Of a stretch of DNA of 64,000 nt, positions 5,308 through 37,479 are shown piece after piece (the stretch's first letter is position 1; each line of letters begins with the position of its first letter). The stretch covers positions 868,001 to 932,000 of the forward strand of contig NZ_JARUBN010000001.1 of the NCBI RefSeq assembly GCF_029626265.1, written 5' to 3'. The notes under the pieces are model-generated. The model did no database searches. It was not told where the DNA came from and worked only from the letters and a program-made list of their open reading frames with translations. The position numbers and the translations under genes were made by a program. Origin of the DNA: Micromonospora sp. WMMD1102 (GTDB lineage Bacteria; Actinomycetota; Actinomycetes; Mycobacteriales; Micromonosporaceae).

Positions 5308-5330
5308 CGCAACCGGAACACGGAGGGCCC

Positions 5331-5591: not shown

Positions 5592-5596
5592 CCGCG

Positions 5597-7560: not shown

Positions 7561-8259
7561 ATGCCACTCGACGTGTGCCAACTGCCGCTGGTCGGCGGGC
7601 ACCCCGCACTCGATCTGGTCAACACGCTCGAGCGTGGGGCGCCGCCGGTGGACGGCTACCAGCCCCACGACTTCCTTTCCGACACCTCCGCACTGCTGCG
7701 TTGGACGACCCGGGTGGGTCTGGTCAGCGACGCGGAGGCCGATCGGGTGGGCCGAGCGTGGCGCGACGATCCGGGGGCGGCACACGCGGGTCTGACTGCC
7801 GTGCGGAACATCCGGGAAGAGCTGCACCTGGTGCTGCTCGCGACGATCCCGGACGCCGACGGCGGTGCAGCGGGTGCGCAGGGCGGCCCCGGTTGGGGTG
7901 ATCCGATCGCGGCGGGTGCCGCCCTGGTCGGATTGCAGGAGCGGTGGTCCGGGGCCGCCGCCCGCGCGACGCTGGTGCTCGACCGAGGTGACCCGCCGGA
8001 GGTGCGCCTCGCCTACGGCAGCGTGGCGGCCATGCTGGTGGCCGACCGGATCGTCGAGAGTGTCCTCGACGTGCTGCTGACGACAGACCTGACCCGGGTG
8101 CGTCGATGTCCGCTGGCCGAGGGCGGCTGCGGCTGGCTCTTCCTCGACCAGAGCCGCAACGGCTCCCGCCGCTGGTGCCGGATGGCCGACTGCGGCAGCA
8201 CGGTCAAGTCGCGACGGCTCACCGAGCGCCGCCGCGCCGCACGGGCCGGCACCCGGTAG
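7561..8259 (+). CDS. ABATE/CGNR zinc-finger regulator
   Basis: The 232-residue protein has the N-terminal ABATE-type domain (LVGGHPALDLVNTL...) and a C-terminal CGNR-type zinc finger: CPLAEGGCGWLFLDQSRNGSRRWCRMADCGS, followed by a basic tail VKSRRLTERRRAARA. The fourth ligand region reads CGS rather than CGN. Proteins of this family are presumed DNA-binding stress or ligand-response regulators of actinobacteria. The gene stands alone with its own upstream inverted repeat and sits between the ACP/KAS operon and the carrier-protein operon, so it may regulate either. A strong hairpin follows about 200 bp downstream. Confidence 0.85.
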   Translation: MPLDVCQLPLVGGHPALDLVNTLERGAPPVDGYQPHDFLSDTSALLRWTTRVGLVSDAEADRVGRAWRDDPGAAHAGLTAVRNIREELHLVLLATIPDADGGAAGAQGGPGWGDPIAAGAALVGLQERWSGAAARATLVLDRGDPPEVRLAYGSVAAMLVADRIVESVLDVLLTTDLTRVRRCPLAEGGCGWLFLDQSRNGSRRWCRMADCGSTVKSRRLTERRRAARAGTR

Positions 8260-8788: not shown

Positions 8789-9493
8789 ATGCGCACAGAG
8801 GATGCTGTCCTGCCGCGATCGCAAGATATCGCGGAAAAGGGATGGAGTCACGGACGACTACCGGTATCCGCGAACGCCGATTGGCGGGAATTCGCGAGTG
8901 CCTGGGACGATCTGCCGATCGACCCGTACGTCAGACCGAGTCACCGCACGTCACGGTACCGCCGTCTGGGGCGGCTGCTGGCGCGCGGCGACGGCTCGGT
9001 GGAGCGCCTGCCGACCGGGGCGTTCGTCCAGGGTAGGGACGTCAACCGGGTCTACGGCGGGCAGGTCAGGGTGTTCGAGCCACTGCTGGGGAAGACGCAT
9101 GACAACGCGACTTTCCAGGCGACGATCGCCCACGACCTCGATCTGGTACGGCAGGTGGAGGAGAAGGAGACGGAGTGGGTCATCACGGTGCACGCGATTC
9201 GTGTGATAGCCACCGGTGACGCTGCTTCGGCGCCGGCGCCGGAGGGGCGTCACAGTGACGGTCACGACTACGTGATCATGCACCTCGTCGGTCGGGAGAA
9301 CTGCCTCGGCGGGCTGAGTCGGCTGTTCCGGAAAGGCGAGGACGTGCCGCTGTTCGAGCACACGCTCCTGGCCCCGATGGAAACGCTGGTGCTGAACGAC
9401 CGGACGATGGAGCACGAGGTTACGCCCATCGTCCCGGGCGGTTCGTCGACCGCCATTCGGGACATGATGATTGTCGATTTCGAGCGGGCCTGA
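8789..9493 (+). CDS. 2-oxoglutarate/Fe(II) dioxygenase, isoleucine-dioxygenase-like family
   Basis: The 234-residue protein matches the family of small 2OG-Fe dioxygenases that hydroxylate free amino acids (the IDO type). The iron ligands are visible as the HxD motif in PEGRHSDGHDYVIMHLVGREN and a distal His in TMEHEVTPIV. The C-terminal IRDMMIVDFE segment, with its Arg, is the usual 2-oxoglutarate-binding end. GGGAGGTTCGGCA precedes the ATG. It is the first gene of an eleven-gene coupled operon containing the amino-group carrier protein. The likely role is hydroxylation of an amino acid before or after carrier loading. The substrate cannot be read from sequence. Confidence 0.88.
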   Translation: MRTEDAVLPRSQDIAEKGWSHGRLPVSANADWREFASAWDDLPIDPYVRPSHRTSRYRRLGRLLARGDGSVERLPTGAFVQGRDVNRVYGGQVRVFEPLLGKTHDNATFQATIAHDLDLVRQVEEKETEWVITVHAIRVIATGDAASAPAPEGRHSDGHDYVIMHLVGRENCLGGLSRLFRKGEDVPLFEHTLLAPMETLVLNDRTMEHEVTPIVPGGSSTAIRDMMIVDFERA

Positions 9494-9512
9494 GAAATCC
9501 GGAGGGATCCCC

Positions 9513-9698
9513 ATGGTGAATGTGACGACGGCACCCGCCTGCGTGGCGTGCGACACCGACATCGCCGTACCGGACGAGACCGAACTGGGCGACATCCTGT
9601 CCTGCCGCGGTTGCGGGCAGGAGCACGAGGTCATCGACCTGGACCCGGCGGTCCGGCTCGACCGCGCGCCCGAGGTGGAGGAGGACTGGGGTGAATGA
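9513..9698 (+). CDS. LysW-type amino-group carrier protein (AmCP)
   Basis: The 61-residue acidic protein has two zinc-binding pairs, Cys10-x-x-Cys13 and Cys31-x-x-Cys34, and the hallmark C-terminus EEDWGE. In this family the gamma-carboxyl of the last Glu is joined to the alpha-amino group of the substrate, which stays protected while its side chain is modified. The ATG at 9,513 has GGAGGG eight bases upstream. The next gene, the matching ligase, overlaps the stop by eight bases. AmCPs act in lysine/arginine synthesis of some bacteria and archaea and, in actinomycetes, in secondary pathways such as vazabitide A. The transketolase and sulfotransferase in the same operon mark this as a secondary-metabolism copy. 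Confidence 0.96.
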   Translation: MVNVTTAPACVACDTDIAVPDETELGDILSCRGCGQEHEVIDLDPAVRLDRAPEVEEDWGE

Positions 9699-10572
9699 GA
9701 CGGCCGATGTGCTGGTCTCGGTCACCATCGTGCGTCCGGAGGAGCGGCTGCTCCTCCGGGCGCTCCGGGCGACCGGACTGACCGCGCGGTCGGTGACGCC
9801 TCGGCACACCGCCGCGATCCTCAACGGCGCCGTGCCACGACCGCGAGCGGTGCTGCTGCGCAACGTCTCGCACCGGGAACTGGCCGCGATGTCGGACCGG
9901 TTCGAGCAGGCCGGCATCGAGACGCTCAACACGCCGGGGGCGGTACGCCTCTGCCTCTCCAAGGACCTGCAGGCGATCGCGTTCGCCCGCTCCGGCGTAC
10001 CGCACCCGACGACACACGTGGCGTTCTCCGTCGAGCAGGTCGGCGAGTACGTCGCCGCGCTCGGCGGGGACGCGGTGCTCAAACCGATCAGCGGGTCGTG
10101 GGGTCGGGGCGTGGTTCGCGTCTCCGACGACGCCCAGTTGGACGCCTGGGCCGGTGGCCGGGAGGGGCTGGACCCCAGGGGCACGAACTTCCCGGTGGTG
10201 GTGCAGCAGTACGTGCCGAAGCCCGGCTACAACCTGCGGGTACACGTCGTCGGCCACCGGCCGGTGGTGGCGTACCGGCAGATCAGTCCCGGGCTGTGCA
10301 CCAACACCCACCAGGGCGGCCTGGTGGAGCCGGTGCCGGTGACGGACCGGGCGCGCGAACTCTGCGACCGGGTCGTCGACTGCTTCGGTCCGGGCTTCTA
10401 CGGCATCGACCTGGTGGAGTCGGTGGAGACCGGCGAGATGTGGGTGCTGGAGGTCAACACCAACCCCGACTTCGCCCGCTCCTCCGAGATCCACGGGGTG
10501 GACATCCCCGGCCACGTCGCCGAGTACGTCCGGGACCGGGTGTTCGCCACTATACCGAGCGGGGTGGCCTGA
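9691..10572 (+). CDS. AmCP-amino acid ligase (LysX/RimK-type ATP-grasp)
   Basis: The 293-residue protein has the ATP-grasp order: LCLSKDLQAIAFARSGVPHPTT (hinge), DAVLKPISGSWGRGVVRV (nucleotide lid with catalytic Lys and Gly-rich loop), VVQQYVPKPGYNLRVHVVG, and the metal-binding end GFYGIDLVE...WVLEVNTNPDF. It should join the alpha-amino group of glutamate, or a related acid, to the C-terminal Glu of the carrier protein using ATP. The GTG start at 9,691 lies inside the end of the carrier gene after a GGTGGAGGAGGA site, ensuring coupled synthesis. Whether the substrate is Glu or alpha-aminoadipate cannot be settled here; the transketolase route favours Glu. Confidence 0.93.
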   Translation: MNETADVLVSVTIVRPEERLLLRALRATGLTARSVTPRHTAAILNGAVPRPRAVLLRNVSHRELAAMSDRFEQAGIETLNTPGAVRLCLSKDLQAIAFARSGVPHPTTHVAFSVEQVGEYVAALGGDAVLKPISGSWGRGVVRVSDDAQLDAWAGGREGLDPRGTNFPVVVQQYVPKPGYNLRVHVVGHRPVVAYRQISPGLCTNTHQGGLVEPVPVTDRARELCDRVVDCFGPGFYGIDLVESVETGEMWVLEVNTNPDFARSSEIHGVDIPGHVAEYVRDRVFATIPSGVA

Positions 10573-11603
10573 TGGGCGACGACCGGATTACCGTGGCGGT
10601 CCTCGGCGGCAGCGGGTTCATCGGTGCCGAGCTGATGCGGCTGCTGGCCGCGCACCCGCAGGTGGAGCCGAAGTTCGTCTCCTCGGCCCGGCACGCCGGA
10701 CAGCGGGTCGGGCAGGTGGTGCCGGGGCTGCGGAACTCCCCGGTGGGCGAGCACCGGATGCGTGGGCTGGACGAGATGTCCAAGGTGGACGTGGCGGTGG
10801 CGTGCCTGCCCAACGGGACGCTGCCGACCGTGCTGGAGGAGGTCTCGGCAAACGCCGACCTTGTGGTCAACGTGGCCGGGGACTACCGGCTGCGCCAACC
10901 CGACGAGATCGCCAAGCACTATCCCGAGTCGGCCGGCGGCTGGCGGCACCCGATCCCGTACTGGGTGCCGGAGTTCTGCGCCAAGCCGACCGAGCCGGTG
11001 CTGAACCTGCCCGGCTGCATGGCGGCCTCGACGCTTTACGCGATCTATCCGCTGTTCCAGGCCGGGGTGGCCGCACCACAGGTGGTGGTGGACGCCAAGA
11101 CCGGGTCCAGCGGGAGCGGCAGCGGCAGCGTCGAGCACCCGGCGATCCGGGACGGGAACGTGCGGGTGCACCGGCTGCACGGGCACCGGCACGCCCCCGA
11201 GGTGCGGCAGGCGATCACCGACCTGACCGGGAACACCCCGGACATCCAGTTCTCCACGTTCAGCCTGCCGGTCGCCCGGGGCGTCATGGTCAGCGCGTAC
11301 GGGCGGCTGAACCCGGGTGCCGGGATCGGCGACGTACGGCGGGCGTTCGCGCGGGCGTACGCGGACACGCCGTTCGTTCGGATGGCGAACGGGCGTACCC
11401 CGATGGCGCTGCCGATGCTCAAGACCGTCGTCGGCTCCAACGTCGCCGAGGTCGGCGTGGCGGTCGAGGACGACCGCTGGGTGTCGGTCTGCACGCTCGA
11501 CAACCTGATCAAGGGCGGTGCGGGGCAGGCGGTGCAGGCCCTGAACCGCGTCTACGGCCTGGACGAACGACTGGGACTTCCGGAGGCAGGGGGATGGCCG
11601 TGA
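10572..11603 (+). CDS. AmCP-gamma-glutamyl phosphate reductase (LysY/ArgC type)
   Basis: The 343-residue NADPH-dependent reductase starts with GDDRITVAVLGGSGFIGAELMRLL (Rossmann GxxGxxG). The nucleophilic Cys is in LNLPGCMAASTLYA, followed by DAKTGSSGSG and the catalytic His region HRHAPEV, all typical of N-acetyl-glutamyl-phosphate reductases. It would reduce the carrier-bound acyl phosphate to a semialdehyde, the acceptor for the transketolase. The ATG overlaps the preceding TGA by one base (TGATG). Compared with housekeeping ArgC, its placement beside the carrier and kinase assigns it to the carrier-bound pathway. Confidence 0.93.
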   Translation: MGDDRITVAVLGGSGFIGAELMRLLAAHPQVEPKFVSSARHAGQRVGQVVPGLRNSPVGEHRMRGLDEMSKVDVAVACLPNGTLPTVLEEVSANADLVVNVAGDYRLRQPDEIAKHYPESAGGWRHPIPYWVPEFCAKPTEPVLNLPGCMAASTLYAIYPLFQAGVAAPQVVVDAKTGSSGSGSGSVEHPAIRDGNVRVHRLHGHRHAPEVRQAITDLTGNTPDIQFSTFSLPVARGVMVSAYGRLNPGAGIGDVRRAFARAYADTPFVRMANGRTPMALPMLKTVVGSNVAEVGVAVEDDRWVSVCTLDNLIKGGAGQAVQALNRVYGLDERLGLPEAGGWP

Positions 11604-13441
11604 TGAACAACGCCGCTCTGTCGGCCGTCTCCCCGTACTCGCCGCTCTACGTGGTGAAGGTGGGGAGCGCGAGCCTGCGCTATCCGGCGATCTACGACGA
11701 ACTCGCCGTCCTGCGGGACGGCGGTGCCCGAATCCTGCTGGTCTGCGGCGGTGCCGCCGACATCGCCGACTACTACGCCAGCCTGGACCGTCCGATGCGG
11801 ACGGTGACGCTGGCCGGCGGAGACGAGGTCCGGTACTGCCCGCCCGACGAGATGCCGTACATCGTCGCGGCCTACGAGCGGCTGACGCTGCCCCGGGTAC
11901 GCGACGAACTGGGCAGCCGCGGCCTGACCGTCTTCGGCGGAACCGCCAGCGCCGAGGCGCTGGTCAGCGGCACCCCGAACCGTCCGCTGCGGGTGGTCGA
12001 CGGTGGCCGGCAGCGGCTGGTCCGGGACCACCGGGCCGGGGTGGTCTGCGAGGTGGCGGTGTCCCGGCTGGCGGCGCTGCTCACCGCGTTCGACGTGGTC
12101 TGCGTCTCGCCGCCGGTCGCCGCCGACGACGGGGGCGCGCCGATAAACGTCGACGCCGACGTGCTCGCCGCCGAACTCGCCCGCGCACTCGACGCCGACC
12201 ACCTGCGACTGGTGACGGGTACGCCGGGACTGCTGGCCGATCCGGCGGACCGGTCCAGCACGCTGCCACACCTGGGCCGGGGCGACGGCATGACGTACGC
12301 CAAGGGGCGGATGCGGCAGAAGGTCCGCGCCGCCGAACTGGCCCTTTCCGGTACGCCCGACGTGGCGATCACCGGCCCGCACACCGTCAACGCGTACCGG
12401 GCCACCCGGTTCTGGCGGGCCCCGGCGCCGGAGCCGGACCTGGACCTGCTGGCCCGGATGGTGGAGATCTCCTCGGTCTCCGGCGACGAGCGGGAGCTGG
12501 GGCTGTTCCTGCTCGACTGGCTCACCGAGCGGAAGGTGCCGGCGATGCTGGACGGGGCCGGCAACCTGGTCGCGACCCGCGGCTCCGGCCCGCGCACCCT
12601 GCTGATGATCGGGCACATGGACACGGTGCCGTACCGCTGGCCGGCGGCCTGGGACGGTGACACGCTCACCGGCCGGGGCTGCGTCGACGCCAAGGCGAGC
12701 CTGGCGGTCTTCCTGGAGACCCTGGCCGAGCTGGACGTACCCGAGGACGTGACGGTGCGGGTCGTCGGCACGGTGGAGGAGGAACGCACCGCGGCCGGTG
12801 CGCTCTTCGCCCGGGACCACTACCCGGCCGACGCGGTGGTCGTCGGCGAGCCGAGCGGTGCCGGCGCGGTCACCATCGGCTACCACGGGGTCTGCAAGGT
12901 CCGGGTCCGGGTCGAGCAGTCCGCCGGGCACACCGCCGGGCAGGGCCGGCGCACCGCCGGCAGCCGGCTCGTCGACGTGATCGGCGAGGCGGAGACCGAG
13001 GTCGGCAAGCGCAGCCCGGAGGCACTCTTCGCGGTGCTGGGCCTGGCCGCGGGCGGCTCCGGCGCGACCCAGACCGCCTCGGCGGTCCTGGACGTGCGGG
13101 TGCCGCCACAGGTCGAGGTGGACGAACTGCTGCCCGCCTTCGGCGACGCGGAACTCCTGCTGGCCACCCCGGCGGTCAGCACCCCCCGGACCGACCCGCT
13201 GGTGCGCGCCTTCACCCGCGCCCTGCGGGCGGTCACCGGGGGTCCACCCCGGCTGCTGGCCAAGAAGGGCAGCAGCGACATGAACACCCTCGCCACCACC
13301 TGGCGGGGCGTGCCGATGGTGGCGTACGGGCCGGGCGACGCCAGCCTCGACCACACGCCGGACGAGCGGATCTCGGCCGGCGAGTACCGGCAGGCCAGGG
13401 CGGTGCTGTCCGCAGCGGTACGGGATTGGTGTGAGCGCTGA
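11594..13441 (+). CDS. Fusion of AmCP-glutamate kinase (LysZ/ArgB) and M20 releasing hydrolase (LysK)
   Basis: This is a single uninterrupted 615-residue frame. Residues 1-275 are an amino-acid kinase domain (YVVKVGSASL, ILLVCGGAADI, INVDADVLAAELA, GRMRQKVRAAELAL). After a roughly 10-residue linker, residues 285-615 are an M20 metallopeptidase with all expected metal ligands: His341 and Asp343 (GHMDTV), Asp365, Glu395/Glu396, Glu419 and His587 (LDHTPDE). The first domain would phosphorylate the carrier-bound side-chain carboxylate. The second would hydrolyse the finished amino acid off the carrier Glu. These activities are normally on separate proteins and act at opposite ends of the pathway. 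The ATG at 11,594 overlaps the reductase gene by ten bases. Confidence 0.92.
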   Translation: MAVMNNAALSAVSPYSPLYVVKVGSASLRYPAIYDELAVLRDGGARILLVCGGAADIADYYASLDRPMRTVTLAGGDEVRYCPPDEMPYIVAAYERLTLPRVRDELGSRGLTVFGGTASAEALVSGTPNRPLRVVDGGRQRLVRDHRAGVVCEVAVSRLAALLTAFDVVCVSPPVAADDGGAPINVDADVLAAELARALDADHLRLVTGTPGLLADPADRSSTLPHLGRGDGMTYAKGRMRQKVRAAELALSGTPDVAITGPHTVNAYRATRFWRAPAPEPDLDLLARMVEISSVSGDERELGLFLLDWLTERKVPAMLDGAGNLVATRGSGPRTLLMIGHMDTVPYRWPAAWDGDTLTGRGCVDAKASLAVFLETLAELDVPEDVTVRVVGTVEEERTAAGALFARDHYPADAVVVGEPSGAGAVTIGYHGVCKVRVRVEQSAGHTAGQGRRTAGSRLVDVIGEAETEVGKRSPEALFAVLGLAAGGSGATQTASAVLDVRVPPQVEVDELLPAFGDAELLLATPAVSTPRTDPLVRAFTRALRAVTGGPPRLLAKKGSSDMNTLATTWRGVPMVAYGPGDASLDHTPDERISAGEYRQARAVLSAAVRDWCER

Positions 13442-14217
13442 TGAACGAGACCGATCTGCTCAACGAACAGGCTGCCCGAGCCCGCCGGCTGGTGGTCGAG
13501 ATGGCCGGCAGCCCGGTCGGCTGCCACCTCGGCGGCAGCCTCTCCGTGCTGGACATCCTGGTGGCCGCCTACGCGGTCGCCCGGTCCCGGCCCGGCACCG
13601 AGGTGGTGCTGAGCAAGGGACACGCCGCCGCCGCGCTCTACGCGGTACTGCACGAGAACGGTGTCATCCCGGAGAACCCGGCGCCGCGCTACGGCCAGGC
13701 GGGGTCGCCGTACACCGGTCATCCAGGTCCGAAGGTCCCCGGGGTGCGGTTCCCGACCGGCAGTCTCGGGCACGGGCTCGCCTACGCCGTCGGCTGGGCG
13801 CTCTCCCGGCAGCTGCTCGGGCAGCCCGGCGGCGCCATCGCGGTGGTCGGCGACGGTGAGCTCCAGGAGGGCCTGGTCTGGGAGGCGCTCCAGGTCGCCC
13901 ACGCGAAGCGGGTGACCGGACTGACCGTGGTGGTGGACGTGAACGGTGGCCAGAACGACGGCTACGTCGCGGACATCTCGCCGCTGACCGATCTGCCGGC
14001 CCGGCTGACCGCGTTCGGCTTCGACGTGATCGAGGTGGACGGCCACGACATCGACAAGCTGATGGCGGCGATGGCGCCCACCGACCGGCCGAAGGCGGTG
14101 CTGGCCGCCACGGTCAAGGGCAAGGGCGTGCCGGCGACCGAGGGCAAGGCGGGCTCGCACTACGTCAAGGTGAGCCCGGCCCGGGCCAGACAGTGGAAGG
14201 CGGCGATCCGGCCATGA
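13441..14217 (+). CDS. Transketolase, N-terminal (TPP-binding) subunit
   Basis: The 258-residue protein contains the thiamine diphosphate motif GDGELQEGLVWEALQVA...VVVDVNGGQNDG and earlier TPP/substrate residues in LSKGHAAAALYAVL and PTGSLGHGLAYAVG. It covers only the first third of a standard transketolase; the partner gene follows with an ATGA overlap. With the next subunit it would move a two-carbon ketol unit from a sugar phosphate onto the carrier-bound aldehyde. In known AmCP clusters this makes a seven-carbon hydroxy-keto amino acid. The start is a TGATG overlap with the kinase-hydrolase fusion. Confidence 0.95.
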   Translation: MNETDLLNEQAARARRLVVEMAGSPVGCHLGGSLSVLDILVAAYAVARSRPGTEVVLSKGHAAAALYAVLHENGVIPENPAPRYGQAGSPYTGHPGPKVPGVRFPTGSLGHGLAYAVGWALSRQLLGQPGGAIAVVGDGELQEGLVWEALQVAHAKRVTGLTVVVDVNGGQNDGYVADISPLTDLPARLTAFGFDVIEVDGHDIDKLMAAMAPTDRPKAVLAATVKGKGVPATEGKAGSHYVKVSPARARQWKAAIRP

Positions 14218-15098
14218 TGTCGGCACGAGACGCGTACAAGGCCGAGCTGACCGAGCTGGCCGAGGCCGACCCGCGGATCGTCTGCCTGGAGGCCGACCTC
14301 GGCGGTGCCAAGCACGGCTTCCAGGAGCGGATCCCGGACCGGTTCCTCAACCTGGGCATCGCCGAGGCGTCCGCGGTGGACATCGCCGTCGGGCTCGCCT
14401 CGGCCGGGCTGCGCCCGTTCCTCAGCACCTTCGCCACCTTCGCGATGTTCCGGGCCGCCGAGAGCGTCAAGCTGGGGCTCGGCTACCTCGGTGCGCCGGT
14501 GGTGCTGGTCTGCCCGTACGGCGGGGTGTCCGGAGCCTGGTTCGGGCCCACCCACCACTGCCTGGAGGACCTGGCCGTGGCGCAGAGCCTGCCGGGGCTG
14601 CGGATCGCCGTACCGGCCGGCGAGGCCGAGACCCGGGAGGTGATCCGCACGGCGGCGGCCGGCGACCGGCCGTGCTACGTGCGGCTGGCCCGCAACGACG
14701 TCTTCGACGTCCCGCTGGTGCCGGCCGCCCGGGGCACGGTCAGCTGGCTCAACCCGATCACCGAGGGGACCTGCCTGGTCTCGATCGGGGAGAAGCCGAC
14801 CGAACTCTGTGCCGCCGCCACCGAGCAGCGGCCCGAGCTGGGCCACGCCCACCTGTGCTGGGTGGACGCCGAGAGCCTCGCCGAGGTCGTACCGCAGCTG
14901 GCCGGCGCCCGCCGACTGGTGGTGGTGGAGGAGCACCGCGGGGCCGGCAGCGTCGCCGCCACGCTGGCGCTGATGCTGCCCGGCCGGGACGTACGCGGGG
15001 TGAACGCCGGCACCGACTGGCCGACCGAGGGCGGCAGCCACGACGAGACCCTCGCCGCGCTCGGCCTGACCGTGTCCGCCGTACTGCAAGCCGCCTAA
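14214..15098 (+). CDS. Transketolase, pyrimidine-binding/C-terminal subunit
   Basis: The 294-residue protein corresponds to the second and third transketolase domains. The cofactor-activating Glu is in RFLNLGIAEASAVDIAVGLASAG, followed by the FLSTFATFAMFRAAE helix and a C-terminal domain (CLVSIGEKPTELCAAA...). The ATG at 14,214 overlaps the preceding TGA (ATGATG), and the MMSARDAYKAELTEL start fits the family better than the longer upstream frame. Split transketolases of this kind recur in actinobacterial secondary clusters. Its stop lies within a strong ribosome site for the HK97-fold gene. Confidence 0.95.
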   Translation: MMSARDAYKAELTELAEADPRIVCLEADLGGAKHGFQERIPDRFLNLGIAEASAVDIAVGLASAGLRPFLSTFATFAMFRAAESVKLGLGYLGAPVVLVCPYGGVSGAWFGPTHHCLEDLAVAQSLPGLRIAVPAGEAETREVIRTAAAGDRPCYVRLARNDVFDVPLVPAARGTVSWLNPITEGTCLVSIGEKPTELCAAATEQRPELGHAHLCWVDAESLAEVVPQLAGARRLVVVEEHRGAGSVAATLALMLPGRDVRGVNAGTDWPTEGGSHDETLAALGLTVSAVLQAA

Positions 15099-15103
15099 GG
15101 AGA
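15097..15103 (+). promoter_or_regulatory. Near-ideal ribosome binding site before the HK97-fold gene
   Basis: AAGGAGA lies five bases before the ATG at 15,109. Most other genes of this operon rely on stop/start overlaps. A stand-alone strong site at this one gene would raise its output relative to its neighbours, as expected for a shell protein needed in many copies. Confidence 0.7.
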
Positions 15104-15108
15104 TCCAG

Positions 15109-15990
15109 ATGGCCACAACCATGCAGCCCAGCGCCACCGCGCTGGAGGTCACCCGCCAGACGCTGGCCGACCCGGCACTGACCCGGCGCAGTCCGGGTGA
15201 GGAGTTCGCCTGGGCGGTCGCGCAGGAGAAGGACGGCGCGGACCTCGTCGTGCCGATCCGTGCCCACCTGACCGCGTCGTTCCCGCTCTTCGCGACCCGG
15301 CCCCGCTACACGGTCCGCCACCTGCTGAAGGTGGCCTCCGTCTCCGACCGTACCCTCGCGTTCGTCCGGGAGGCGCCGAAGGCCGGGTACGGCGCCGCCG
15401 GCAACACCTACGCGACCACGCCCGAGTCCGGCTTCCGGCCCAGTGTCGAGTACGCCGAGCTGACCGAGATGACCGTCACGGTGCCGGTACCCGACGGTCT
15501 GCGCCACGACCCGGCCCTGCTCGCCGCGTTCGTCGACTACCGGGTGCTGGTCCGGCTCGGTGTGGTGGAGAACCAGGCGCTGCTGCACGGCACCGCCGAC
15601 CACCGGATCGAGGGCCTGCTCAACCTGCCCGAGATCCGCCGGGCGCCGTTGCGCGGCGACCTCGGTGCGGCGCTGACCGAGGCGGCCGGCACGGTCGAGG
15701 AGACCGGCGGCTCCTGCGACGGGATCGTGGTGCATCCGGCGCACTACTGGGAGCTGGTCCGGGACGGCTACCTCGGCCGACTCGGCGAGGCGGGCATCAA
15801 GGTGTCCCGTACCCGGATGATGCCGCGCGGTCAGGCGCTGCTCGGCGACTTCCGGGCGGCGGTCACGCTGCTCGACCCGGGCAACTCGTCGCTGGCGATC
15901 GTCGGCGACGCGATCGAGGCCCGCACCTGGGCCGGCCTCGCCGTGCACCTGCCGCAGCACTTCCTCCTGTTGGGAGGTGACCGGGAATGA
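15109..15990 (+). CDS. HK97-fold capsid/encapsulin-like protein (natural-product encapsulin type)
   Basis: The 293-residue protein follows the pattern of HK97-fold major capsid proteins: an N-arm/E-loop region (residues 60-115), the strand EYAELTEMTVTVPVPDGLRHD (114-134), the long helix with VVENQALLHGT and GLLN (152-172), the P-domain segment DGIVVHPAHYWELVRDGYLG (204-223), and MPRGQALLGDFRAAVTLLD (238-256). It lacks the roughly 100-residue scaffold (delta) domain of phage capsids. No portal, protease, terminase or tail gene lies nearby. A computational survey has described encapsulins embedded in natural-product clusters, and this gene fits that group. Its place between transketolase and sulfotransferase suggests it encloses or organises pathway enzymes. 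No cargo-loading peptide is obvious on its neighbours. Confidence 0.85.
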   Translation: MATTMQPSATALEVTRQTLADPALTRRSPGEEFAWAVAQEKDGADLVVPIRAHLTASFPLFATRPRYTVRHLLKVASVSDRTLAFVREAPKAGYGAAGNTYATTPESGFRPSVEYAELTEMTVTVPVPDGLRHDPALLAAFVDYRVLVRLGVVENQALLHGTADHRIEGLLNLPEIRRAPLRGDLGAALTEAAGTVEETGGSCDGIVVHPAHYWELVRDGYLGRLGEAGIKVSRTRMMPRGQALLGDFRAAVTLLDPGNSSLAIVGDAIEARTWAGLAVHLPQHFLLLGGDRE

Positions 15991-16889
15991 AGGTCGTCTA
16001 CATCACCGGGTGGCTGCGCAGCGGCAGCACCATCCTGGGCAACGTGCTCAACGAGCTGCCGGGGGTGCTGCACGTCGGCGAGCTGCACTACCTGTGGCAG
16101 AACGGGGTGCTGCGGCACGGCACCAACTCGCTCTGCGGCTGCGGCGAGCAGGTCGAGACGTGCCCGCTCTGGTCGTCGGTGGTGGCCACCCTCGACGCGC
16201 CGGACCTGTCCCGGCTGGCCACCCAGATGATGCGGTGGCAGCGCGGCGCCCTGCGTACCCGGCACACCCGGGCCCGGCTGGCGAACACCCCCGAGCAGGC
16301 CCGTGCGGTGGTGGACCGGACGGTCGCGCTCTACCGGGCCCTGGCGGAGCGGGGGGCGTCGCGGGCGATCGTGGACAGCTCCAAGTACCCGGCCGAGGCG
16401 GCGGCCCTGCTCAACCGGCCGGACGTCGACCTGCGCCTGGTGCACATCGTGCGCGACCCGCGCGCCACCGCGTACTCGTACCTGCGGGCGAAGCGCTACA
16501 TCGACCCGATGAGCCCGGCGGCCAGCACCTCGAACTGGGTCGGCTTCAACCTCGCCTCCGAGCTGGTCGGCAACGCCTCCAACGGGCGCTACCTGCGGGT
16601 GCGCCACGAGGACCTGACCCGGGAGCCGCGCCGGGTGGTCGCCGAGGTGCTCCGGTTCGCCGGGCTGGACGACGAGTCGCCGGTCGACGACGACGGCAAG
16701 GTCACCCTGGGGGTCAACCACACGGTCACCGGCAACCCGGACCGGCTCGGCCAGGGCACCGTGGCGATCCGGCCGGACGAGCGGTGGCGTACCGAGCTGC
16801 CGGCCGGGCACGCCGCGGTGAGCACCGCGCTCGCGTTGCCGCTGCTGCGCCGCTACCGGTATCCGCTGCGGGCGAAGGGAGCGGCGTGA
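15987..16889 (+). CDS. PAPS-dependent sulfotransferase
   Basis: The 300-residue protein has the 5'-phosphosulfate loop ITGWLRSGSTILGNVLNEL at its N-terminus and the 3'-phosphate segment VHIVRDPRATAYSYLRAKR near residue 155, both standard for sulfotransferases. It would sulfate a hydroxyl of a pathway intermediate. In vazabitide/azinomycin-type chemistry a sulfate ester acts as a leaving group for ring closure to an aziridine, so sulfate here may be transient rather than part of the product. That is inference. The ATGA overlaps the HK97-fold stop, and the two sulfate-activating genes close the operon. Confidence 0.93.
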   Translation: MKVVYITGWLRSGSTILGNVLNELPGVLHVGELHYLWQNGVLRHGTNSLCGCGEQVETCPLWSSVVATLDAPDLSRLATQMMRWQRGALRTRHTRARLANTPEQARAVVDRTVALYRALAERGASRAIVDSSKYPAEAAALLNRPDVDLRLVHIVRDPRATAYSYLRAKRYIDPMSPAASTSNWVGFNLASELVGNASNGRYLRVRHEDLTREPRRVVAEVLRFAGLDDESPVDDDGKVTLGVNHTVTGNPDRLGQGTVAIRPDERWRTELPAGHAAVSTALALPLLRRYRYPLRAKGAA

Positions 16890-17680
16890 TGGACCTCGGT
16901 CTGACCGGCCGGGTGGCCCTGGTCGCCGCCGCGAGCAGCGGGCTCGGCCTGGCGGTCGCCCGGGCGCTGGCCGCCGAGGGCGCGGACGTCTCCATCTCCG
17001 CCCGCGACCCGGAGCGGCTGGCCCGGGCACACGAGGAGGTCGACCGGGCCGGCCCGGGACGGGTGCTCAGCACGGTCGTCGACGTCACCGACGAGGCGGC
17101 CGCGGCCGGCTGGGTGCGGCGTACCGCCGAGGAGCTGGGTGCGCTGCACGTGGTGGTCACCAACTCGCCCGGCGTACCGCACGGCAGGGCCGACGCCTTC
17201 GCGGTGGACGACTACCGCCAGGCGTTCGACGGCTCCACGCTGCCGCACGTCGCGCTCACCCTGGCCGCCCTGCCGTACCTGCGGCAGGCCGGCTGGGGCC
17301 GGGTGCTGATGATCACCTCCGAGGCGGTACGCCAGCCGCTGCCGGGCACCGCCATGTCGGCGGTCGCCCGGCTCGGCGTGCTCGGCTTCGCCAAGGGGCT
17401 GGTGCACTCGCTGGGCGCCAGCGGCGTCACGGTGAACGTCCTCGCCCCCGGGGTGCACCAGACCCCGGCGTTCGAGGGGTTCGTCGCGGCGCACTCGCAG
17501 CGGTCCGGAGTGGACCGGGAGACCGCGCTGAAGGAGATCGCCGCCGAGGTGCCGCTCGGCCGGATCGGCCAGCCCGCCGACTTCGGCGCGCTCGCCGCGT
17601 TCCTGGCCAGCCGGCACGCCGGCTTCGTGACCGGCACGGTGCTGCTGGTCGACGGCGGAAACACCAGGGGGATCGGATGA
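16889..17680 (+). CDS. SDR-fold protein lacking the catalytic Tyr-x-x-x-Lys
   Basis: The 263-residue Rossmann protein is clearly of the classical short-chain dehydrogenase family: VALVAAASSGLGLAVARAL nucleotide loop, VVTNSPG in place of NNAG, MITSEAV with the catalytic Ser, and a C-terminal VTGTVLLVDGGNT. The active-site YxxxK is replaced by a segment reading MSAVARLG. Aligned on the following GFAKGL helix, Tyr and Lys correspond to Ser and Arg. It is therefore either a non-redox catalyst (for example elimination or cyclisation), a structural partner or an unusual reductase. TGATG coupling to the sulfotransferase suggests that they act in succession. Confidence 0.85.
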   Translation: MDLGLTGRVALVAAASSGLGLAVARALAAEGADVSISARDPERLARAHEEVDRAGPGRVLSTVVDVTDEAAAAGWVRRTAEELGALHVVVTNSPGVPHGRADAFAVDDYRQAFDGSTLPHVALTLAALPYLRQAGWGRVLMITSEAVRQPLPGTAMSAVARLGVLGFAKGLVHSLGASGVTVNVLAPGVHQTPAFEGFVAAHSQRSGVDRETALKEIAAEVPLGRIGQPADFGALAAFLASRHAGFVTGTVLLVDGGNTRGIG

Positions 17681-18567
17681 GCGTCGAGGTACTGGAGGCG
17701 GAGGCCGTCCACATCATCCGGGAGGTGGCGGCCGAGTTCGAGCGGCCGGTGCTGCTCTTCTCCGGTGGCAAGGACTCGATCGTCATGCTCCGGCTAGCCG
17801 AGAAGGCGTTCCGGCCGGCGCCGATCCCGTTCCCGGTGCTGCACGTCGACACCGGGCACAACTTCCCCGAGGTGCTCGACTACCGGGACAGGCGGGTCGC
17901 CGAGCTGGGGGTGCAGCTGATCTGCGCCTCGGTGCAGGAGTCGATCGACACCGGCCGGGTGGTCGAGGAGACCGGGCCGCGGGCCAGCCGCAACCGGTTG
18001 CAGACCACCACCCTGCTGGACGCCCTCGACAAGTACGGCTTCGACGCCGCGTTCGGCGGGGCCCGCCGGGACGAGGAGAAGGCCCGGGCCAAGGAGCGGA
18101 TCTTCTCCTTCCGGGACGAGTTCGGCCAGTGGGACCCGAAGAACCAGCGGCCCGAGCTGTGGAACCTGTTCAACACCCGGATCCGGCGCGGGGAGCACAT
18201 CCGGGTCTTCCCGCTCTCCAACTGGACCGAGCTGGACGTCTGGCGGTACATCGAGCGGGACGGGCTGGAGGTGCCGTCGATCTACTTTGCGCACCGCCGC
18301 CGGGTCTTCGAGCGGGACGGCATGCTGCTGGCCGAGAACCCGTACCAGGCGCCCGGTCCGGGCGCGGAGGTGGTCGAGGCCACCGTCCGGTACCGCACGG
18401 TCGGCGACATGACCTGCACCGGGGCCGTCGAGTCCGGGGCGCGCACCGTCGCCGACATCGTCAGGGAGGTCGCGTCGACCCGGATCACCGAGCGCGGGGC
18501 GACCCGGGCCGACGACCGGGTCAGCGAGGCCGCCATGGAAGACCGCAAGCGGGAGGGGTACTTCTGA
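17677..18567 (+). CDS. cysD: Sulfate adenylyltransferase subunit 2
   Basis: The 296-residue PP-loop ATPase has LLFSGGKDSIVMLRL near residue 26, HVDTGHNFPEVLDYRD, FGGARRDEEKARAKERIFSFRD and the C-terminal TVGDMTCTGAVES, all standard CysD sequences. With CysN it makes adenosine phosphosulfate (APS) from sulfate and ATP. ATGA overlap with the SDR gene. The copy in this operon presumably supplies activated sulfate to the neighbouring sulfotransferase rather than to cysteine synthesis. Confidence 0.97.
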   Translation: MSVEVLEAEAVHIIREVAAEFERPVLLFSGGKDSIVMLRLAEKAFRPAPIPFPVLHVDTGHNFPEVLDYRDRRVAELGVQLICASVQESIDTGRVVEETGPRASRNRLQTTTLLDALDKYGFDAAFGGARRDEEKARAKERIFSFRDEFGQWDPKNQRPELWNLFNTRIRRGEHIRVFPLSNWTELDVWRYIERDGLEVPSIYFAHRRRVFERDGMLLAENPYQAPGPGAEVVEATVRYRTVGDMTCTGAVESGARTVADIVREVASTRITERGATRADDRVSEAAMEDRKREGYF

Positions 18568-18569
18568 CC

Positions 18570-19811
18570 ATGGACATCCTCCGGTTCGCCACCGCCGGCT
18601 CGGTCGACGACGGCAAGAGCACCCTCATCGGCCGTCTGCTCTACGACTCCAAGTCCACCTTCACCGACCAGTTGGCGGCGGTGGAGCGGGCCAGCCGGGA
18701 CCGTGGCGACGAGTACACGAACCTGGCCCTGCTCACCGACGGCCTGCGGGCCGAGCGGGAGCAGGGCATCACCATCGACGTGGCGTACGGCTACTTCGCC
18801 ACGCCCAAGCGGAAGTTCATCATCGCCGACACCCCCGGGCACGCCCAGTACACCCGGAACATGGTGACCGGGGCCTCCACGGCGGATCTGGCGATCATCC
18901 TGGTCGACGCGACCAAGGGGCTGGTCGAGCAGAGCCGCCGGCACGCCTTCCTGGTCAGCCTGCTCGGCGTGCCGCACCTGGTGGTCTGCGTCAACAAGAT
19001 GGACCTGGTCGGCTACGACGAGGCGGTCTTCGAGCGGATCCGGGCGGAGTTCTCGGCGTTCACCTCGAAGCTCTCGGCCCGGGACGTGACATTCGTGCCG
19101 ATCTCCGCGCTGCGCGGCGACAACGTGGTCAGCCGCTCCTACGAGATGGGCTGGTACGGCGGCGCCCCGCTGCTGCACCACCTGGAGAACGTGCACATCG
19201 CGTCGGACCGGAACCTGGTCGACGCCCGCTTCCCGGTGCAGTACGTCATCCGGCCGCAGTCGCACGCCTACCGCGACTACCGGGGCTACGCCGGCCAGGT
19301 CGCCGGCGGCGTGCTGCGCCCCGGCGACGAGGTGCTGCACCTGCCCACCGGGCTGACCACCCGGATCGCCGGGATCGACGGCCCGGACGGCCCGGTGGAC
19401 GAGGCCGCCCCGCCGATGTCGGTGGTGCTGCGGCTCGCCGACGACCTCGACATCTCCCGGGGCGACATGATCTGCCGGCCGCACAACGCCCCGACCCCGA
19501 CCCAGGACCTCGACTCCCTGGTGGTCTGGATGACCGACCGGCCGCTCCGGCCGGGCCAGCGGCTGCTGGTCAAGCACACCACCCGGACCGCCCGGGCGGT
19601 GGTGAAGGACCTGCGCTACCGGCTGGACGTGAACACCCTGCACCGGGACGAGGACGCCGCCGAGCTGCGGTGCAACGAGATCGGCCGGTTGCACCTGCGG
19701 GTCACCCAGCCGCTCTTCTGCGACCCGTACTCCCGCAACCGGCTGACCGGCGCGTTCATCCTGATCGACGAGGCGACGAACCTGACGGTCGGCGCGGGGG
19801 TCGTCAACTGA
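18570..19811 (+). CDS. cysN: Sulfate adenylyltransferase subunit 1 (GTPase), without APS-kinase domain
   Basis: The 413-residue GTPase shows AGSVDDGKSTLIGRLL (G1), DTPGHAQYTRNM (G3) and VNKMD (G4), followed by EF-Tu-like beta-barrel domains. It ends VGAGVVN, without the fused CysC kinase domain found in longer actinobacterial CysNC proteins. No separate APS kinase is seen in the window, so PAPS for the sulfotransferase must be completed by a kinase encoded elsewhere. The ATG lies two bases after the cysD stop. It is the last gene of the core operon, followed by a hairpin. Confidence 0.97.
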   Translation: MDILRFATAGSVDDGKSTLIGRLLYDSKSTFTDQLAAVERASRDRGDEYTNLALLTDGLRAEREQGITIDVAYGYFATPKRKFIIADTPGHAQYTRNMVTGASTADLAIILVDATKGLVEQSRRHAFLVSLLGVPHLVVCVNKMDLVGYDEAVFERIRAEFSAFTSKLSARDVTFVPISALRGDNVVSRSYEMGWYGGAPLLHHLENVHIASDRNLVDARFPVQYVIRPQSHAYRDYRGYAGQVAGGVLRPGDEVLHLPTGLTTRIAGIDGPDGPVDEAAPPMSVVLRLADDLDISRGDMICRPHNAPTPTQDLDSLVVWMTDRPLRPGQRLLVKHTTRTARAVVKDLRYRLDVNTLHRDEDAAELRCNEIGRLHLRVTQPLFCDPYSRNRLTGAFILIDEATNLTVGAGVVN

Positions 19812-22856: not shown

Positions 22857-24056
22857 ATGTCGTACACGAAGCCTACCGATCCCGCGGTGCTGGCGACGGC
22901 GGTCACCGACAACCTCGTCGTCGCGGTCGACCCTGACGCACCGGCCTCCGGCCTCTACTACTGGGAAATCTCCCGGCCCTGGCGCGACAAGGTCGTCGAC
23001 GCGGTCCGGGCCTGCACCGACCCGACCATCCGGACGCTCGGCGAGGGCCTGCTGGCCGAGCCGACGGACCACCGCCGCTACTGGGAGCTGCACGCGGCGC
23101 TGCTGGAGCGGCAGGGGAAGCAGCCCGAGATCGACGAGCTGCTGCACCTCGGCTGGCGGGCCGAGTGCAACTCGCGGCTCGGCCACGTGCTCAACAAGGG
23201 CTACGACCGGGACTCGACACCGGTGACGGTGGAGGAGATGAAGGCGTTCGACCCGGGTACGCCGCTGCCCGCCGGCGCCAAGCCCGAGGTCCTGGTCGTG
23301 ATCCCGTTCCACAGCCGGCTGGAGGGCGGCGGAGACCGGCTGCGCAACCTGCTGGCCTGCCTGCGCTCGCTGCGCGACCAGTCCTTCCCGCGCGAGCACT
23401 ACCAGGTCACCGTCGTGGAGAGCGACGAGCAGTCGCGCTGGCGCGACGTGATCAGCCCGTTCGCCGACAACTACCTCTTCGCCCGCAAGGACGGGGTGTT
23501 CAACAAGTCCTGGGCGATGAACGCGGGTGTGGTGCACAGCCCCGGCCCCACCGAGATCATCTGCCACATGGACGCCGACGTGCTGGCCGACCGGGACTTC
23601 CTGGCCCGCAACGTGGAACGGATGCTCGGGCCCGGCACGATGGGGCACCTGCCGTACCGGGACATGCTGGCGATGGACTTCCCGTCCACCTGGCGGGCGA
23701 TCCGGGAGCGGCTGCACGGCGGGGCGGCGGCGGCCGACATGAACCGGGTGCGCGGGTTCACCCTGCGTCGGGGGCCGGGCCTCTGCTTCTTCGCCCGCGC
23801 CGAGCTGTACCACCGGGTCGGCGGGATGGACGAGCGCTACCAGGGCTGGGGCGGCGAGGACATCGAGTTCAACTACCGCTTCGGTTTCGACGCGGCGTAC
23901 GACGCGTACGAGGAGCCGCTGCTGCACATGCGGCACCCGTCGTACTCGGTGCTGCGCTCGGACGGGAAGTTGATCAACGCGCACCTGGTGCCGGGTACCT
24001 GGCGGCCGGAGCGCCCGATCGGTCAACTCGACCAGTTCACCCCGGTCGGGGTCTAG
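22857..24056 (+). CDS. Family 2 glycosyltransferase with C-terminal galactosyltransferase-like domain
   Basis: The 399-residue protein has a roughly 140-residue N-terminal extension of unknown role. It is followed by a GT-A nucleotide-sugar domain (VLVVIPFHSRLEGGGDR, ICHMDADVLADRDF with the metal-binding DxD) and the acceptor-side motif GMDERYQGWGGEDIEFNYR seen in chondroitin-synthase/galactosyltransferase families. It is soluble, with no membrane span. It should transfer a sugar from a UDP donor, for which the window encodes UDP-glucuronate, UDP-xylose and a further uronic or amino sugar. It starts the operon that continues with the AMP ligase 15 bases downstream. Confidence 0.9.
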   Translation: MSYTKPTDPAVLATAVTDNLVVAVDPDAPASGLYYWEISRPWRDKVVDAVRACTDPTIRTLGEGLLAEPTDHRRYWELHAALLERQGKQPEIDELLHLGWRAECNSRLGHVLNKGYDRDSTPVTVEEMKAFDPGTPLPAGAKPEVLVVIPFHSRLEGGGDRLRNLLACLRSLRDQSFPREHYQVTVVESDEQSRWRDVISPFADNYLFARKDGVFNKSWAMNAGVVHSPGPTEIICHMDADVLADRDFLARNVERMLGPGTMGHLPYRDMLAMDFPSTWRAIRERLHGGAAAADMNRVRGFTLRRGPGLCFFARAELYHRVGGMDERYQGWGGEDIEFNYRFGFDAAYDAYEEPLLHMRHPSYSVLRSDGKLINAHLVPGTWRPERPIGQLDQFTPVGV

Positions 24057-37385: not shown

Positions 37386-37479
37386 GCGTGCCGGGGACCG
37401 GGTGCCCGACCCCGGCGACGGACCATCCGCGCTACCCGACCAGGCACGGCGGTGTGCCAGCCACGCTAACGGAGGCCAG

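Follow-up and report, generated by a model that had tools for sequence, protein, structure and literature searches.

Family 3 encapsulins have been described as "natural product encapsulins", encoded together with a sulfotransferase, an SDR, and a carrier protein, and passages of that report propose that their shells sequester reactive aldehydes or ketones (Andreas and Giessen 2021; PMC8346489). The role of the sole family 3 encapsulin studied is stated there to be unknown. The only studied product of such a system, chloromyxamide from Myxococcus, contains 6-chloromethyl-5-methoxypipecolic acid (Gorges et al. 2018, as described in PMC8346489). A second related system is the azinomycin pathway: according to passages of PMC9570651, a transketolase adds two carbons to protected glutamate semialdehyde, followed by an aminotransferase, later sulfation, and then attack by the neighbouring amine.

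We analysed 64,000 nucleotides from Micromonospora sp. WMMD1102 (the window), which contain an operon resembling the family 3 clusters of PMC8346489 both in its virus-derived shell, a member of the same curated family (NF041188), and in its partner genes. The novelty suggested by the preliminary description does not hold, since the combination of encapsulin, carrier, sulfotransferase, and SDR is already in that paper, as is the sequestration idea. Its main text has no mention of a transketolase, which its supplementary figures may show. The phrase 'family 3 encapsulin' was rare in the literature searched, where most subscription journals are missing. Gene clusters of this kind are already published, and our comparison points to the substrate of the shell-linked enzymes. 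What our analysis contributes is a kinase-hydrolase fusion, a 2OG oxygenase, non-overlapping supply routes, and an SDR without the Tyr/Lys pair. We read the locus, with a probability of about 0.7, as a two-module family 3 encapsulin operon (supply and core) making a carrier-bound C7 ketol that would then be released, cyclised, and sulfated.

Organization of the operon and extent of the cluster

Reading-frame and profile analysis resolved positions 8789-19811 into 12 genes on the same strand (Table 1). The coupled operon is therefore real, far beyond chance, but contains one gene more than the eleven of the preliminary description. The gene order is 2OG oxygenase, LysW-type carrier, LysX, LysY, fused LysZ-LysK, split transketolase (two genes), family 3 encapsulin, sulfotransferase, SDR, CysD, and CysN, and the 11 intergenic junctions measure 19, -8, -1, -10, -1, -4, 10, -4, -1, -4, and 2 nt. 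Kinase and hydrolase, previously listed as separate, are both present but fused in one protein; this fusion, the 2OG oxygenase as first gene, and the conserved tail (see below) had been missed. The genome-mining comparison suggested at that stage covered 61 other named family 3 loci, and 7 of them, from four genera and one MAG, have the identical 12-gene order; in one of the seven (L033), the carrier gene is a tblastn detection only.

The cluster continues past CysN to about 28.4 kb with a conserved tail of LuxR, GT2, AMP-ligase, acyl-CoA dehydrogenase, and ALDH genes. Its upstream border is probably the CGNR-type regulator, a class assigned through the counterpart in L110 (28% match to the c13 group). 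The class B loci contain a similar regulator, c13, which belongs to Pfam zf-CGNR/ABATE. L110 and L033 are apparently one and the same 44,480-base Rhizocola contig. For the C-domain, PCP, and KAS III genes at 3649-7313, no counterpart was detected in the fetched loci, few of which extend so far upstream, and we therefore kept these genes outside the cluster. A search of a plasmid collection gave no match.

Table 1. Features of the cluster, in window coordinates
Feature	Position	Strand	Profile matches, motifs, and distribution
CGNR zinc-finger-type regulator (putative)	7561..8259	+	77% identical gene in L033 and L110 (apparently one contig)
2OG-Fe(II) oxygenase	8789..9493	+	PF10014 179 bits; 7/7 window-type loci, 0/52 others examined
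LysW-like amino-group carrier protein	9513..9698	+	PF21344 zinc ribbon 45 bits, cut-off 27; C-terminus EDWGE
LysX-type ATP-grasp ligase	9691..10572	+	PF08443, PF22626; RimK/LysX
LysY/ArgC-type acyl-phosphate reductase	10572..11603	+	TIGR01850 246 bits, cut-off 233.6
Fused LysZ kinase (N) and LysK M20 hydrolase (C), 615 aa	11594..13441	+	PF00696 and PF01546 in one protein
Transketolase N-terminal subunit (TPP domain)	13441..14217	+	PF00456 Transketolase_N 83 bits
Transketolase pyrimidine-binding subunit	14214..15098	+	PF02779 Transket_pyr 107 bits
Family 3 encapsulin shell protein (predicted HK97 fold)	15109..15990	+	NF041188 351 bits, cut-off 180
PAPS-dependent-type sulfotransferase	15987..16889	+	PF13469; RSGST at 11, VRDPRATAYS at 155
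SDR without Tyr/Lys pair	16889..17680	+	MSAVAR at 156-161
CysD, sulfate adenylyltransferase small subunit	17677..18567	+	PF01507 158 bits
CysN, sulfate adenylyltransferase GTPase subunit	18570..19811	+	PF00009, PF22594; no CysC domain
Large LuxR-type regulator	19937..22549	-	43-78% identical genes in window-type loci
GT2-like glycosyltransferase	22857..24056	+	PF00535; 6/7 window-type loci, 0/52 others
AMP-dependent ligase	24072..25712	+	PF00501; 50/62 encapsulin loci
Acyl-CoA dehydrogenase	25709..26860	+	PF00441; 40/62 encapsulin loci
Aldehyde dehydrogenase	26857..28410	+	PF00171; L039 (1/7 window-type loci) and 6/6 aldolase-type loci

The supply genes

The supply genes include a LysW-type carrier with a C-terminal Glu and, adjoining it, LysX, kinase, reductase, and hydrolase, as found in amino-group carrier pathways. 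The carrier's C-terminal motif recurs in all 26 aligned carriers from encapsulin loci. The ligase, which is expected from its sequence to load the carrier, scored above the threshold of TIGR00768 (162 bits; 143.4) and below that of TIGR02144 (177.5 bits; 275.6). LysY contains PGC at 147-149 and HRHAPE at 205, and the transketolase N-terminal subunit GDGE at 137 and DVNGGQND at 166. The LysZ-LysK fusion occurs in 12 of 354 genomes of the window's family (E 1e-60). As in DADH-type clusters, there is a transketolase for two-carbon extension (PF00456 and PF02779); an in-cluster aminotransferase for the C6 ketone, sought as DegT family, was not found.

The LysW/X/Y/Z/K homologues would also be expected if the operon duplicated the primary carrier-protein biosynthesis of lysine/arginine. 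We rejected this explanation as almost certainly wrong: we recognised no aminotransferase among its genes, and such a pathway uses neither a transketolase nor a sulfotransferase nor a shell. In addition, a second, better argC match lies elsewhere in the genome, and the encapsulin was found in only one of seven genomes of the genus, the window's own.

The shell protein and the sulfotransferase-SDR core

An AlphaFold2 model of the shell protein (pLDDT 84.1, pTM 0.81) predicts an HK97 fold, with HK97 proheads as best Foldseek matches (8fqk; E 6.3e-16, TM 0.69/0.76). Together with the NF041188 score, this bears out the compartment protein of the preliminary description. Its best PDB structure and sequence matches being phage capsids, it could in principle derive from a stranded capsid gene outside the pathway. 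We consider this highly improbable and rejected it as well. The NF041188 score exceeds the cut-off, and the gene begins 10 nt past the preceding pathway gene and overlaps the following one by 4 nt. Counterparts with 64-84% identity occupy this position in 7 other loci. The family 3 partner genes (sulfotransferase, SDR, and carrier protein) all lie beside it, a sulfotransferase homologue is present in 61/61 named encapsulin loci, and no phage family was detected in 20 window proteins scanned. By eye, we recognised no cargo tag common to the termini of sulfotransferase, SDR, ligase, acyl-CoA dehydrogenase, LysZK, and CysD.

The sulfation step described before agrees with the presence of both a sulfotransferase and CysDN in the operon. 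At E 1e-4, the sulfotransferase has itself as sole homologue in the 8.9-Mb genome, and it is also the sole PF13469 match. The genome's only APS kinase match is located at C1:6334292. Outside the operon, the genome contains two further strong matches to PF01507, which represent CysD or PAPS reductase.

The SDR is indeed atypical, as had been noted: the Tyr-x3-Lys of classical SDRs is replaced by Ser-x3-Arg. [LM]S-x3-R was found in 62 of 63 aligned SDR rows (some loci appear twice), the exception being the distant L093. The closest solved SDRs (5vps, 5idx, 5va8, 2z1n) have Ser-x3-Arg, too; the motif is therefore typical of a broader SDR subgroup and does not indicate a new enzyme. Entry 6jh7 may be AerF, an alkenal reductase, and a literature search on YwfH gave no match. 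Halohydrin-dehalogenase-like chemistry was considered and dropped, because that family retains the Tyr, with Arg, whereas in the window SDR the Tyr is also gone.

Supply routes across encapsulin loci

All 62 loci were kept in a count of supply routes, which do not overlap: carrier plus transketolase (32), aminotransferase (18), BagB/FevI-like aldolase plus aspartokinase (6), and transaldolase (3), with 3 cut or unassigned, namely L052 (cut contig) and L051 and L056 (no supply genes; L056 begins at the shell gene). Several gene sets that are unrelated to each other feed one and the same shell-sulfotransferase core. The aldolase of the BagB/FevI/ADH-synthase type with aspartokinase would yield the same C7 amino-ketol skeleton as the carrier-transketolase route, and so would the transaldolase. 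Three of the routes would thus build this skeleton, and because two others would make it too, the shared core probably acts on it. The DegT aminotransferase loci (18/62) and those with an aldo-keto reductase (AKR) show no obvious C7 ketol, and the substrate of the core may thus be of a more general kind. In the window's family, where we inspected the best 30 of 55 over-cutoff genomes (the window's own among them), 17 of these 30 best-scoring loci fetched carry, beside the shell gene, an AKR and a sulfotransferase of another kind. A carboxylic-acid-reductase-like protein is encoded upstream in the six AKR-type loci viewed at length; this comparison omits L090, L108, and L110 (duplicates) and short rows.

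Gene content was compared across 59 loci: 7 of window type, 24 of class B, 6 aldolase, 16 aminotransferase, and 6 encapsulin-free; L051, L052, L056, L072, L086, L090, L092, L093, and the window itself stand outside this set. The six encapsulin-free operons (L112-L117), from the window's family, share the carrier and transketolase genes: AmCP, LysX, LysY, and the LysZK fusion in 6/6, transketolase in 5/6, with median identities of 50-66%. They differ by a DegT aminotransferase (6/6, tblastn) and by lacking the shell core, with homologues of encapsulin, sulfotransferase, CysD, AMP-ligase, and acyl-CoA dehydrogenase in 0/6; SDR-like genes adjoin two of the six (39% median). In contrast, tblastn with three DegT queries gave no hit in any of the other 31 encapsulin loci of the transketolase class; in the 64-kb window, one query gave a marginal partial match (109 residues, E 1e-4). 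Beside carrier genes, aminotransferase and encapsulin core therefore look like alternatives.

Overall, the operon is a mosaic of modules: its supply genes are closest to those of the encapsulin-free operons, and its core genes are common to other encapsulin classes. In a LysY tree with the ArgC of the same genome as root, the window type grouped with the encapsulin-free operons (100/99), and a clade of window type and class B was rejected by the AU test (p-AU 0.0235). For LysX, the same clade was not rejected (p 0.246). The LysX and TK-N trees separated window type and encapsulin-free operons from class B (100/100), a split for which these trees do not place the root, and the LysZK tree was ambiguous. 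These last three trees included 14 chosen class B loci.

The proposed pathway

From the gene content we infer the following chemistry and role of the shell. LysX would link the alpha-amine of glutamate to the carrier's C-terminal Glu. The side-chain carboxylate would be converted to an aldehyde by the LysZ domain and LysY, and the two-subunit transketolase would add a two-carbon ketol, giving carrier-bound 2-amino-5,7-dihydroxy-6-oxoheptanoate. We regard formation of this C7 ketol as likely. The route proposed in the preliminary description, from Glu via the semialdehyde to a seven-carbon ketol, has its full enzyme set here and a precedent in azinomycin and vazabitide (PMC9570651). Amine-protected glutamate, kinase, reductase, transketolase, and later sulfation are common to both, vazabitide being the carrier-protein version.

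The straight analogy drawn earlier does not carry over, since that pathway requires an aminotransferase before sulfation and none was found in the window operon; moreover, the passages of PMC9570651 considered here do not mention an encapsulin. A distant aminotransferase might still provide 2,6-diamino-5,7-dihydroxyheptanoate, which would be sulfated and closed to an aziridine by sulfate loss. The same carrier and transketolase logic, the order of sulfation and amine attack in PMC9570651, and the closeness of the supply genes to those of DegT-bearing operons speak for this. The absence concerns the DegT family, and DegT proteins encoded elsewhere in the genome, far from the operon, could aminate C6. 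Given the distribution of DegT described above, with all encapsulin-free operons on one side and none of the other transketolase-class encapsulin loci on the other, we nevertheless think this unlikely. The ring-forming enzyme of the vazabitide/azinomycin type is AziU3/U2. A literature search combining azabicycle, sulfotransferase, and aziridine biosynthesis gave no match, and encapsulin and aziridine did not occur together among the matches listed.

In the two-module reading that we prefer, C6 probably retains its oxygen, as the operon yielded no aminotransferase. The LysK domain would release the alpha-amine. Ring closure of this amine on C6 can give a six-membered cyclic imine, and the SDR would reduce this imine, or C6 directly. 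Cyclisation to a chloromyxamide-type 6-hydroxymethyl-5-hydroxypipecolate is a tentative proposal. Compared by product description and not by genes, the chloromyxamide pipecolate (PMC8346489) has the C7 skeleton expected of glutamate plus a C2 ketol, closed between N and C6. The sulfotransferase, supplied by CysDN, would sulfate a hydroxyl, most likely C7-OH. The shell may house or shield the SDR/sulfation stage, and AMP-ligase, acyl-CoA dehydrogenase, ALDH, GT2, and 2OG oxygenase would tailor the unit.

The sulfate may subsequently act as leaving group, which we put somewhat below even odds. It might also simply be kept as a stable decoration of an amino acid or conjugate, as Andreas and Giessen (PMC8346489) proposed for sulfotransferase-SDR pairs. 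Sulfotransferases often yield stable esters, and the presence of CysDN in the operon agrees with activated sulfate being needed in stoichiometric amounts. However, a kept ester gives little reason for a shell, and the chloromethyl group of chloromyxamide, judged from the structure, sits where the ketol route leaves CH2-OH, which suits an activated, displaced oxygen. We therefore treat a kept sulfate as a serious but doubtful explanation.

A more general and speculative idea, which we consider rather improbable, is that family 3 encapsulins serve to compartmentalise chemistry with sulfate as leaving group. The supply modules (carrier plus transketolase, aldolase, transaldolase, aminotransferase, or carboxylate reductase) would be interchangeable and deliver an amino alcohol or amino-ketol. 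The sulfotransferase would convert a hydroxyl adjacent to the nitrogen into a sulfate, and the nitrogen would displace this sulfate inside the shell in a Wenker-type aziridine formation. If so, the shell would keep an alkylating aziridine from the cell, the chloromethyl-pipecolate of chloromyxamide would be a ring-opened form, and the SDR would be an imine reductase or a ring-closing scaffold.

Taken together, the operon represents the family 3 clusters in a compact, complete, and conserved form. A shared core fed by several routes, three of which would give a C7 amino-ketol, yields a short list of testable shell substrates and links the question of the shell's contents to a known product skeleton.

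Organization of the operon

The window (C1:868001-932000) belongs to an 8.9-Mb high-GC genome, and the closest named relative with respect to the operon genes is Rhizocola hellebori (Micromonosporaceae). The preliminary description had reported an operon of eleven coupled genes, and this observation is correct, except that 12 same-strand genes are counted, with near-abutting junctions (19, -8, -1, -10, -1, -4, 10, -4, -1, -4, and 2 nt). Since all genes lie on one strand and are spaced by 19 to -10 nt, they are very probably co-transcribed.

Features of the operon and of other gene groups in the window
Feature	Position	Strand	Basis
PF10014 2OG-Fe oxygenase	operon, 8789-19811	+	Pfam
LysW-like carrier	operon	+	Pfam/NCBIfam
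LysX-like ATP-grasp ligase	operon	+	Pfam/NCBIfam
ArgC/LysY reductase	operon	+	Pfam/NCBIfam
AA_kinase + M20 hydrolase, single protein of 615 aa	operon	+	Pfam/NCBIfam
Transketolase halves (two genes)	operon	+	Pfam/NCBIfam
Family 3 encapsulin	operon	+	NCBIfam, 351 bits (cut-off 180); no Pfam match
Sulfotransferase	operon	+	Pfam/NCBIfam
SDR	operon	+	Pfam/NCBIfam
CysD and CysN	operon	+	Pfam/NCBIfam
Condensation domain, carrier domain, KAS III C-terminal-domain protein	3649-7313		PF00668 (condensation), PF00550 (carrier)
Serine palmitoyltransferase-like enzyme, UbiA-like prenyltransferase, ThiL-like kinase, in a row	36291-39516		407 bits (first enzyme); all three below NCBIfam cut-offs
FxSxx-type system	56429-63480		three components over cut-off
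aKG-HExxH peptide beta-hydroxylase	within 56429-63480		TIGR04267, 171 bits
FxsB cyclophane-forming radical SAM maturase	within 56429-63480		TIGR04269, 375 bits
FxSxx_TPR protein	within 56429-63480		NF040586, 583 bits

The operon CysN lacks a CysC domain, and the only APS kinase match found in this genome is located at a distance of 5.4 Mb. Two further strong PF01507 matches, which could be CysD or PAPS reductase, are encoded elsewhere in the genome. The CysDN pair of the operon is likely dedicated. No second homologue of the sulfotransferase was found in the whole genome.

A PDB sequence search with the encapsulin retrieved six sequences, all from phage capsids, with E-values between 1e-4 and 1e-3. 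Its AlphaFold2 model, built from 21 sequences, reached a pLDDT of 84.1 and a pTM of 0.81, with low confidence in the N-terminal 19 residues; a structure search with this model placed HK97 prohead chains on top and encapsulin shells lower in the same list. Inspection by eye of the termini of several operon and cluster proteins did not reveal a recognizable cargo tag.

Distribution of the encapsulin loci

In the window's family, 55 of 354 genomes encode a family 3 encapsulin that scores over cut-off. Within its genus, only one of seven genomes, the one studied here, encodes the protein, which suggests that it was acquired, or lost repeatedly. Scanning of named genomes yielded 61 encapsulin loci, which were subjected to local gene calling and clustering. 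The window-type operon recurs with identical gene order in seven of them, from R. hellebori, three Micromonospora, Sphaerisporangium melleum, Thermocatellispora tengchongensis, and one MAG; the carrier gene of one locus (L033) was overlooked by the gene caller and recovered by tblastn at 77%.

A shared core with variable, putative supply genes

Across all 62 loci, including the window, the clusters contained the encapsulin in 62, the sulfotransferase in 60, and the SDR in 56 cases, followed by an AMP-ligase (50), an acyl-CoA dehydrogenase (40), and CysD (33). By tblastn, homologues of the sulfotransferase and the SDR were present in 61 and 57 of the 61 named loci, respectively. The variable part is the putative supply genes, which fall into four sets: transketolase plus carrier set (32 loci), DegT aminotransferase (18), DhnA-type aldolase plus aspartokinase (6), and transaldolase (3). 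One locus carries the carrier set on a cut contig and two have no supply genes. As clustered, no locus combines two of the four sets. Of the 14 searched genomes with non-carrier loci, 11 gave no LysW match at E 1e-3; the remaining three have at least one match, which is over cut-off in two of them.

Aspartokinase and the DhnA-type aldolase adjoin the encapsulin core in L057, L064, L067, L069, L070, and L071. The aldolase scored 357 bits against BagB/FevI (cut-off 500), 315 bits against PRK07226 (cut-off 241), and 292.6 bits against TIGR01949 (cut-off 299.45), and is therefore of the 2-amino-3,7-dideoxyheptulosonate synthase kind, but not the assigned equivalog. Its best PDB relative is MJ0400. 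Aldolases of the BagB/FevI/GriI type join aspartate semialdehyde and dihydroxyacetone phosphate to a C7 amino-ketol. PF01959, the ring-forming partner in the aromatic aldolase pathway, was not detected in three of five aldolase-locus genomes, and the two sites in the others do not overlap with the encapsulin loci; none of the five (of six) aldolase loci checked contains this aromatizing partner. These six loci probably specify a non-aromatic C7 amino acid route. The transaldolase is a weak match (82 bits, far below the cut-off of 367); such an enzyme would add the same three carbons as the aldolase. Its three loci lack a clustered SDR, and the shell gene is adjoined by one for a protein with a weak, below-cutoff saccharopine dehydrogenase match, a faint hint of imine reduction.

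In a further large class in the window's family (17 of the 30 loci inspected), the shell gene directly adjoins genes for an aldo-keto reductase and for a sulfotransferase of the PF19798 type. The six loci viewed at length (L097-L101, L105) encode an A-T-R carboxylate reductase, aldo-keto reductase, sulfotransferase, encapsulin, and MFS protein; the preceding carboxylic-acid-reductase-like A-T-R protein was recognized in L097 from Pfam matches and in the other five from an identity of 52-60%.

Of 63 aligned SDR rows, among which some loci appear twice, 62 have [LM]S-x3-R in place of the motif Y-x3-K; the exception is the distant L093 row. Because solved SDR relatives share this Tyr/Lys replacement, the proteins represent an SDR subgroup. 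Loss of the Tyr would be more compatible with hydride transfer to a C=N or C=C bond than with reduction of a ketone.

Probable mosaic origin of the operon

We compared the window genes with the window-type loci, with the other carrier-plus-transketolase encapsulin loci (class B), and with six encapsulin-free carrier-type operons (L112-L117). LysZK fusions occur in 12 genomes of the family, and these six are the ones that have no adjoining encapsulin.

Median identity (%) to the window genes
Gene	Window type	Class B	Encapsulin-free
Carrier	72	40	50
LysX	78	31	52
LysY	77	35	53
Transketolase N	87	45	66
Transketolase C	80	36	57
Encapsulin	80	59	0/6 loci
Sulfotransferase	74	62	0/6 loci
SDR	80	64	weak matches in 2/6 loci

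The pattern of the supply genes is reversed for the core genes (encapsulin, sulfotransferase, and SDR), which are 52-60% identical to those of the aldolase and aminotransferase classes. All six encapsulin-free operons encode a DegT aminotransferase (PF01041, 224 bits in L112; 72-79% identity to it in the other five, with L116, which has no gene calls, assigned by tblastn). By tblastn, three DegT queries found nothing in the other 31 encapsulin loci of the transketolase class, and gave one marginal partial match in the 64-kb window (109 residues, E 1e-4).

In the LysY tree, rooted with the genome's own ArgC, the window type groups with the encapsulin-free operons (100/99), and a grouping with class B was rejected (p-AU 0.0235). 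The unrooted LysX and transketolase N trees show the same split (100/100); for LysX, the alternative grouping with class B was not rejected (p 0.246), and the LysZK tree does not decide between the two. In the encapsulin tree, a node with 91 SH-aLRT (not starred) unites the window type with class B and some further loci. Taken together, identities, DegT distribution, and trees make a good but not overwhelming case that the encapsulin core joined a carrier/transketolase module in the place of the aminotransferase, independently of class B.

Other gene clusters

The 3649-7313 region also encodes a 253-aa protein that matches neither Pfam nor NCBIfam models, and the gene set of this region has no match in the fetched loci, few of which extend that far upstream. 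The genes at 36291-39516 are possibly a sphingolipid- or meroterpenoid-like cluster. In the Actinomadura loci L074-L082, described from scans of the representatives L076 and L079, a LanM-like DUF4135/LANC protein adjoins the encapsulin gene; farther from it lie genes for a protein resembling cyanuric acid amidohydrolase (NF052395, 478 bits) and for an alpha-beta fusion of glycyl-tRNA synthetase.

Relation to published systems and proposed pathway

Family 3 "natural product encapsulins" were defined by Andreas & Giessen 2021 with 132 systems in six classes, usually accompanied by sulfotransferases, SDRs, PKS, NRPS, and carrier proteins (PMC8346489). The sole studied cluster is described there as directing synthesis of chloromyxamides, which contain 6-chloromethyl-5-methoxypipecolic acid. 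The authors state that the function of its encapsulin is unknown and propose that aldehydes or ketones are sequestered. The central idea of the preliminary description, a shell sequestering a reactive intermediate, was therefore already in print, and its claim of novelty does not hold, the operon being a new member of this published class. In the literature searched, which lies outside most subscription journals, just two articles use the term "family 3 encapsulin", and only the same article mentions an encapsulin together with an amino-group carrier protein.

The predicted route from glutamate via a carrier-bound semialdehyde is largely right up to the C7 ketol, which would be formed on the carrier as in azinomycin/vazabitide logic (PMC9570651). 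There, however, an aminotransferase acts after the ketol, whereas none was found in the window operon or its relatives; DegT proteins are encoded elsewhere in the genome, away from the operon. The LysK domain would free the alpha-amine, which could then reach C6. This N-C6 closure would give the 6-substituted, 5-oxygenated pipecolate skeleton that the chloromyxamide unit also has. The remaining hydroxyl would be the target of the sulfotransferase, with the sulfate then kept or lost, and the shell would shield the ketol, an imine, or an alkylating species. The part of these results that merits follow-up is the comparative pattern across the loci.
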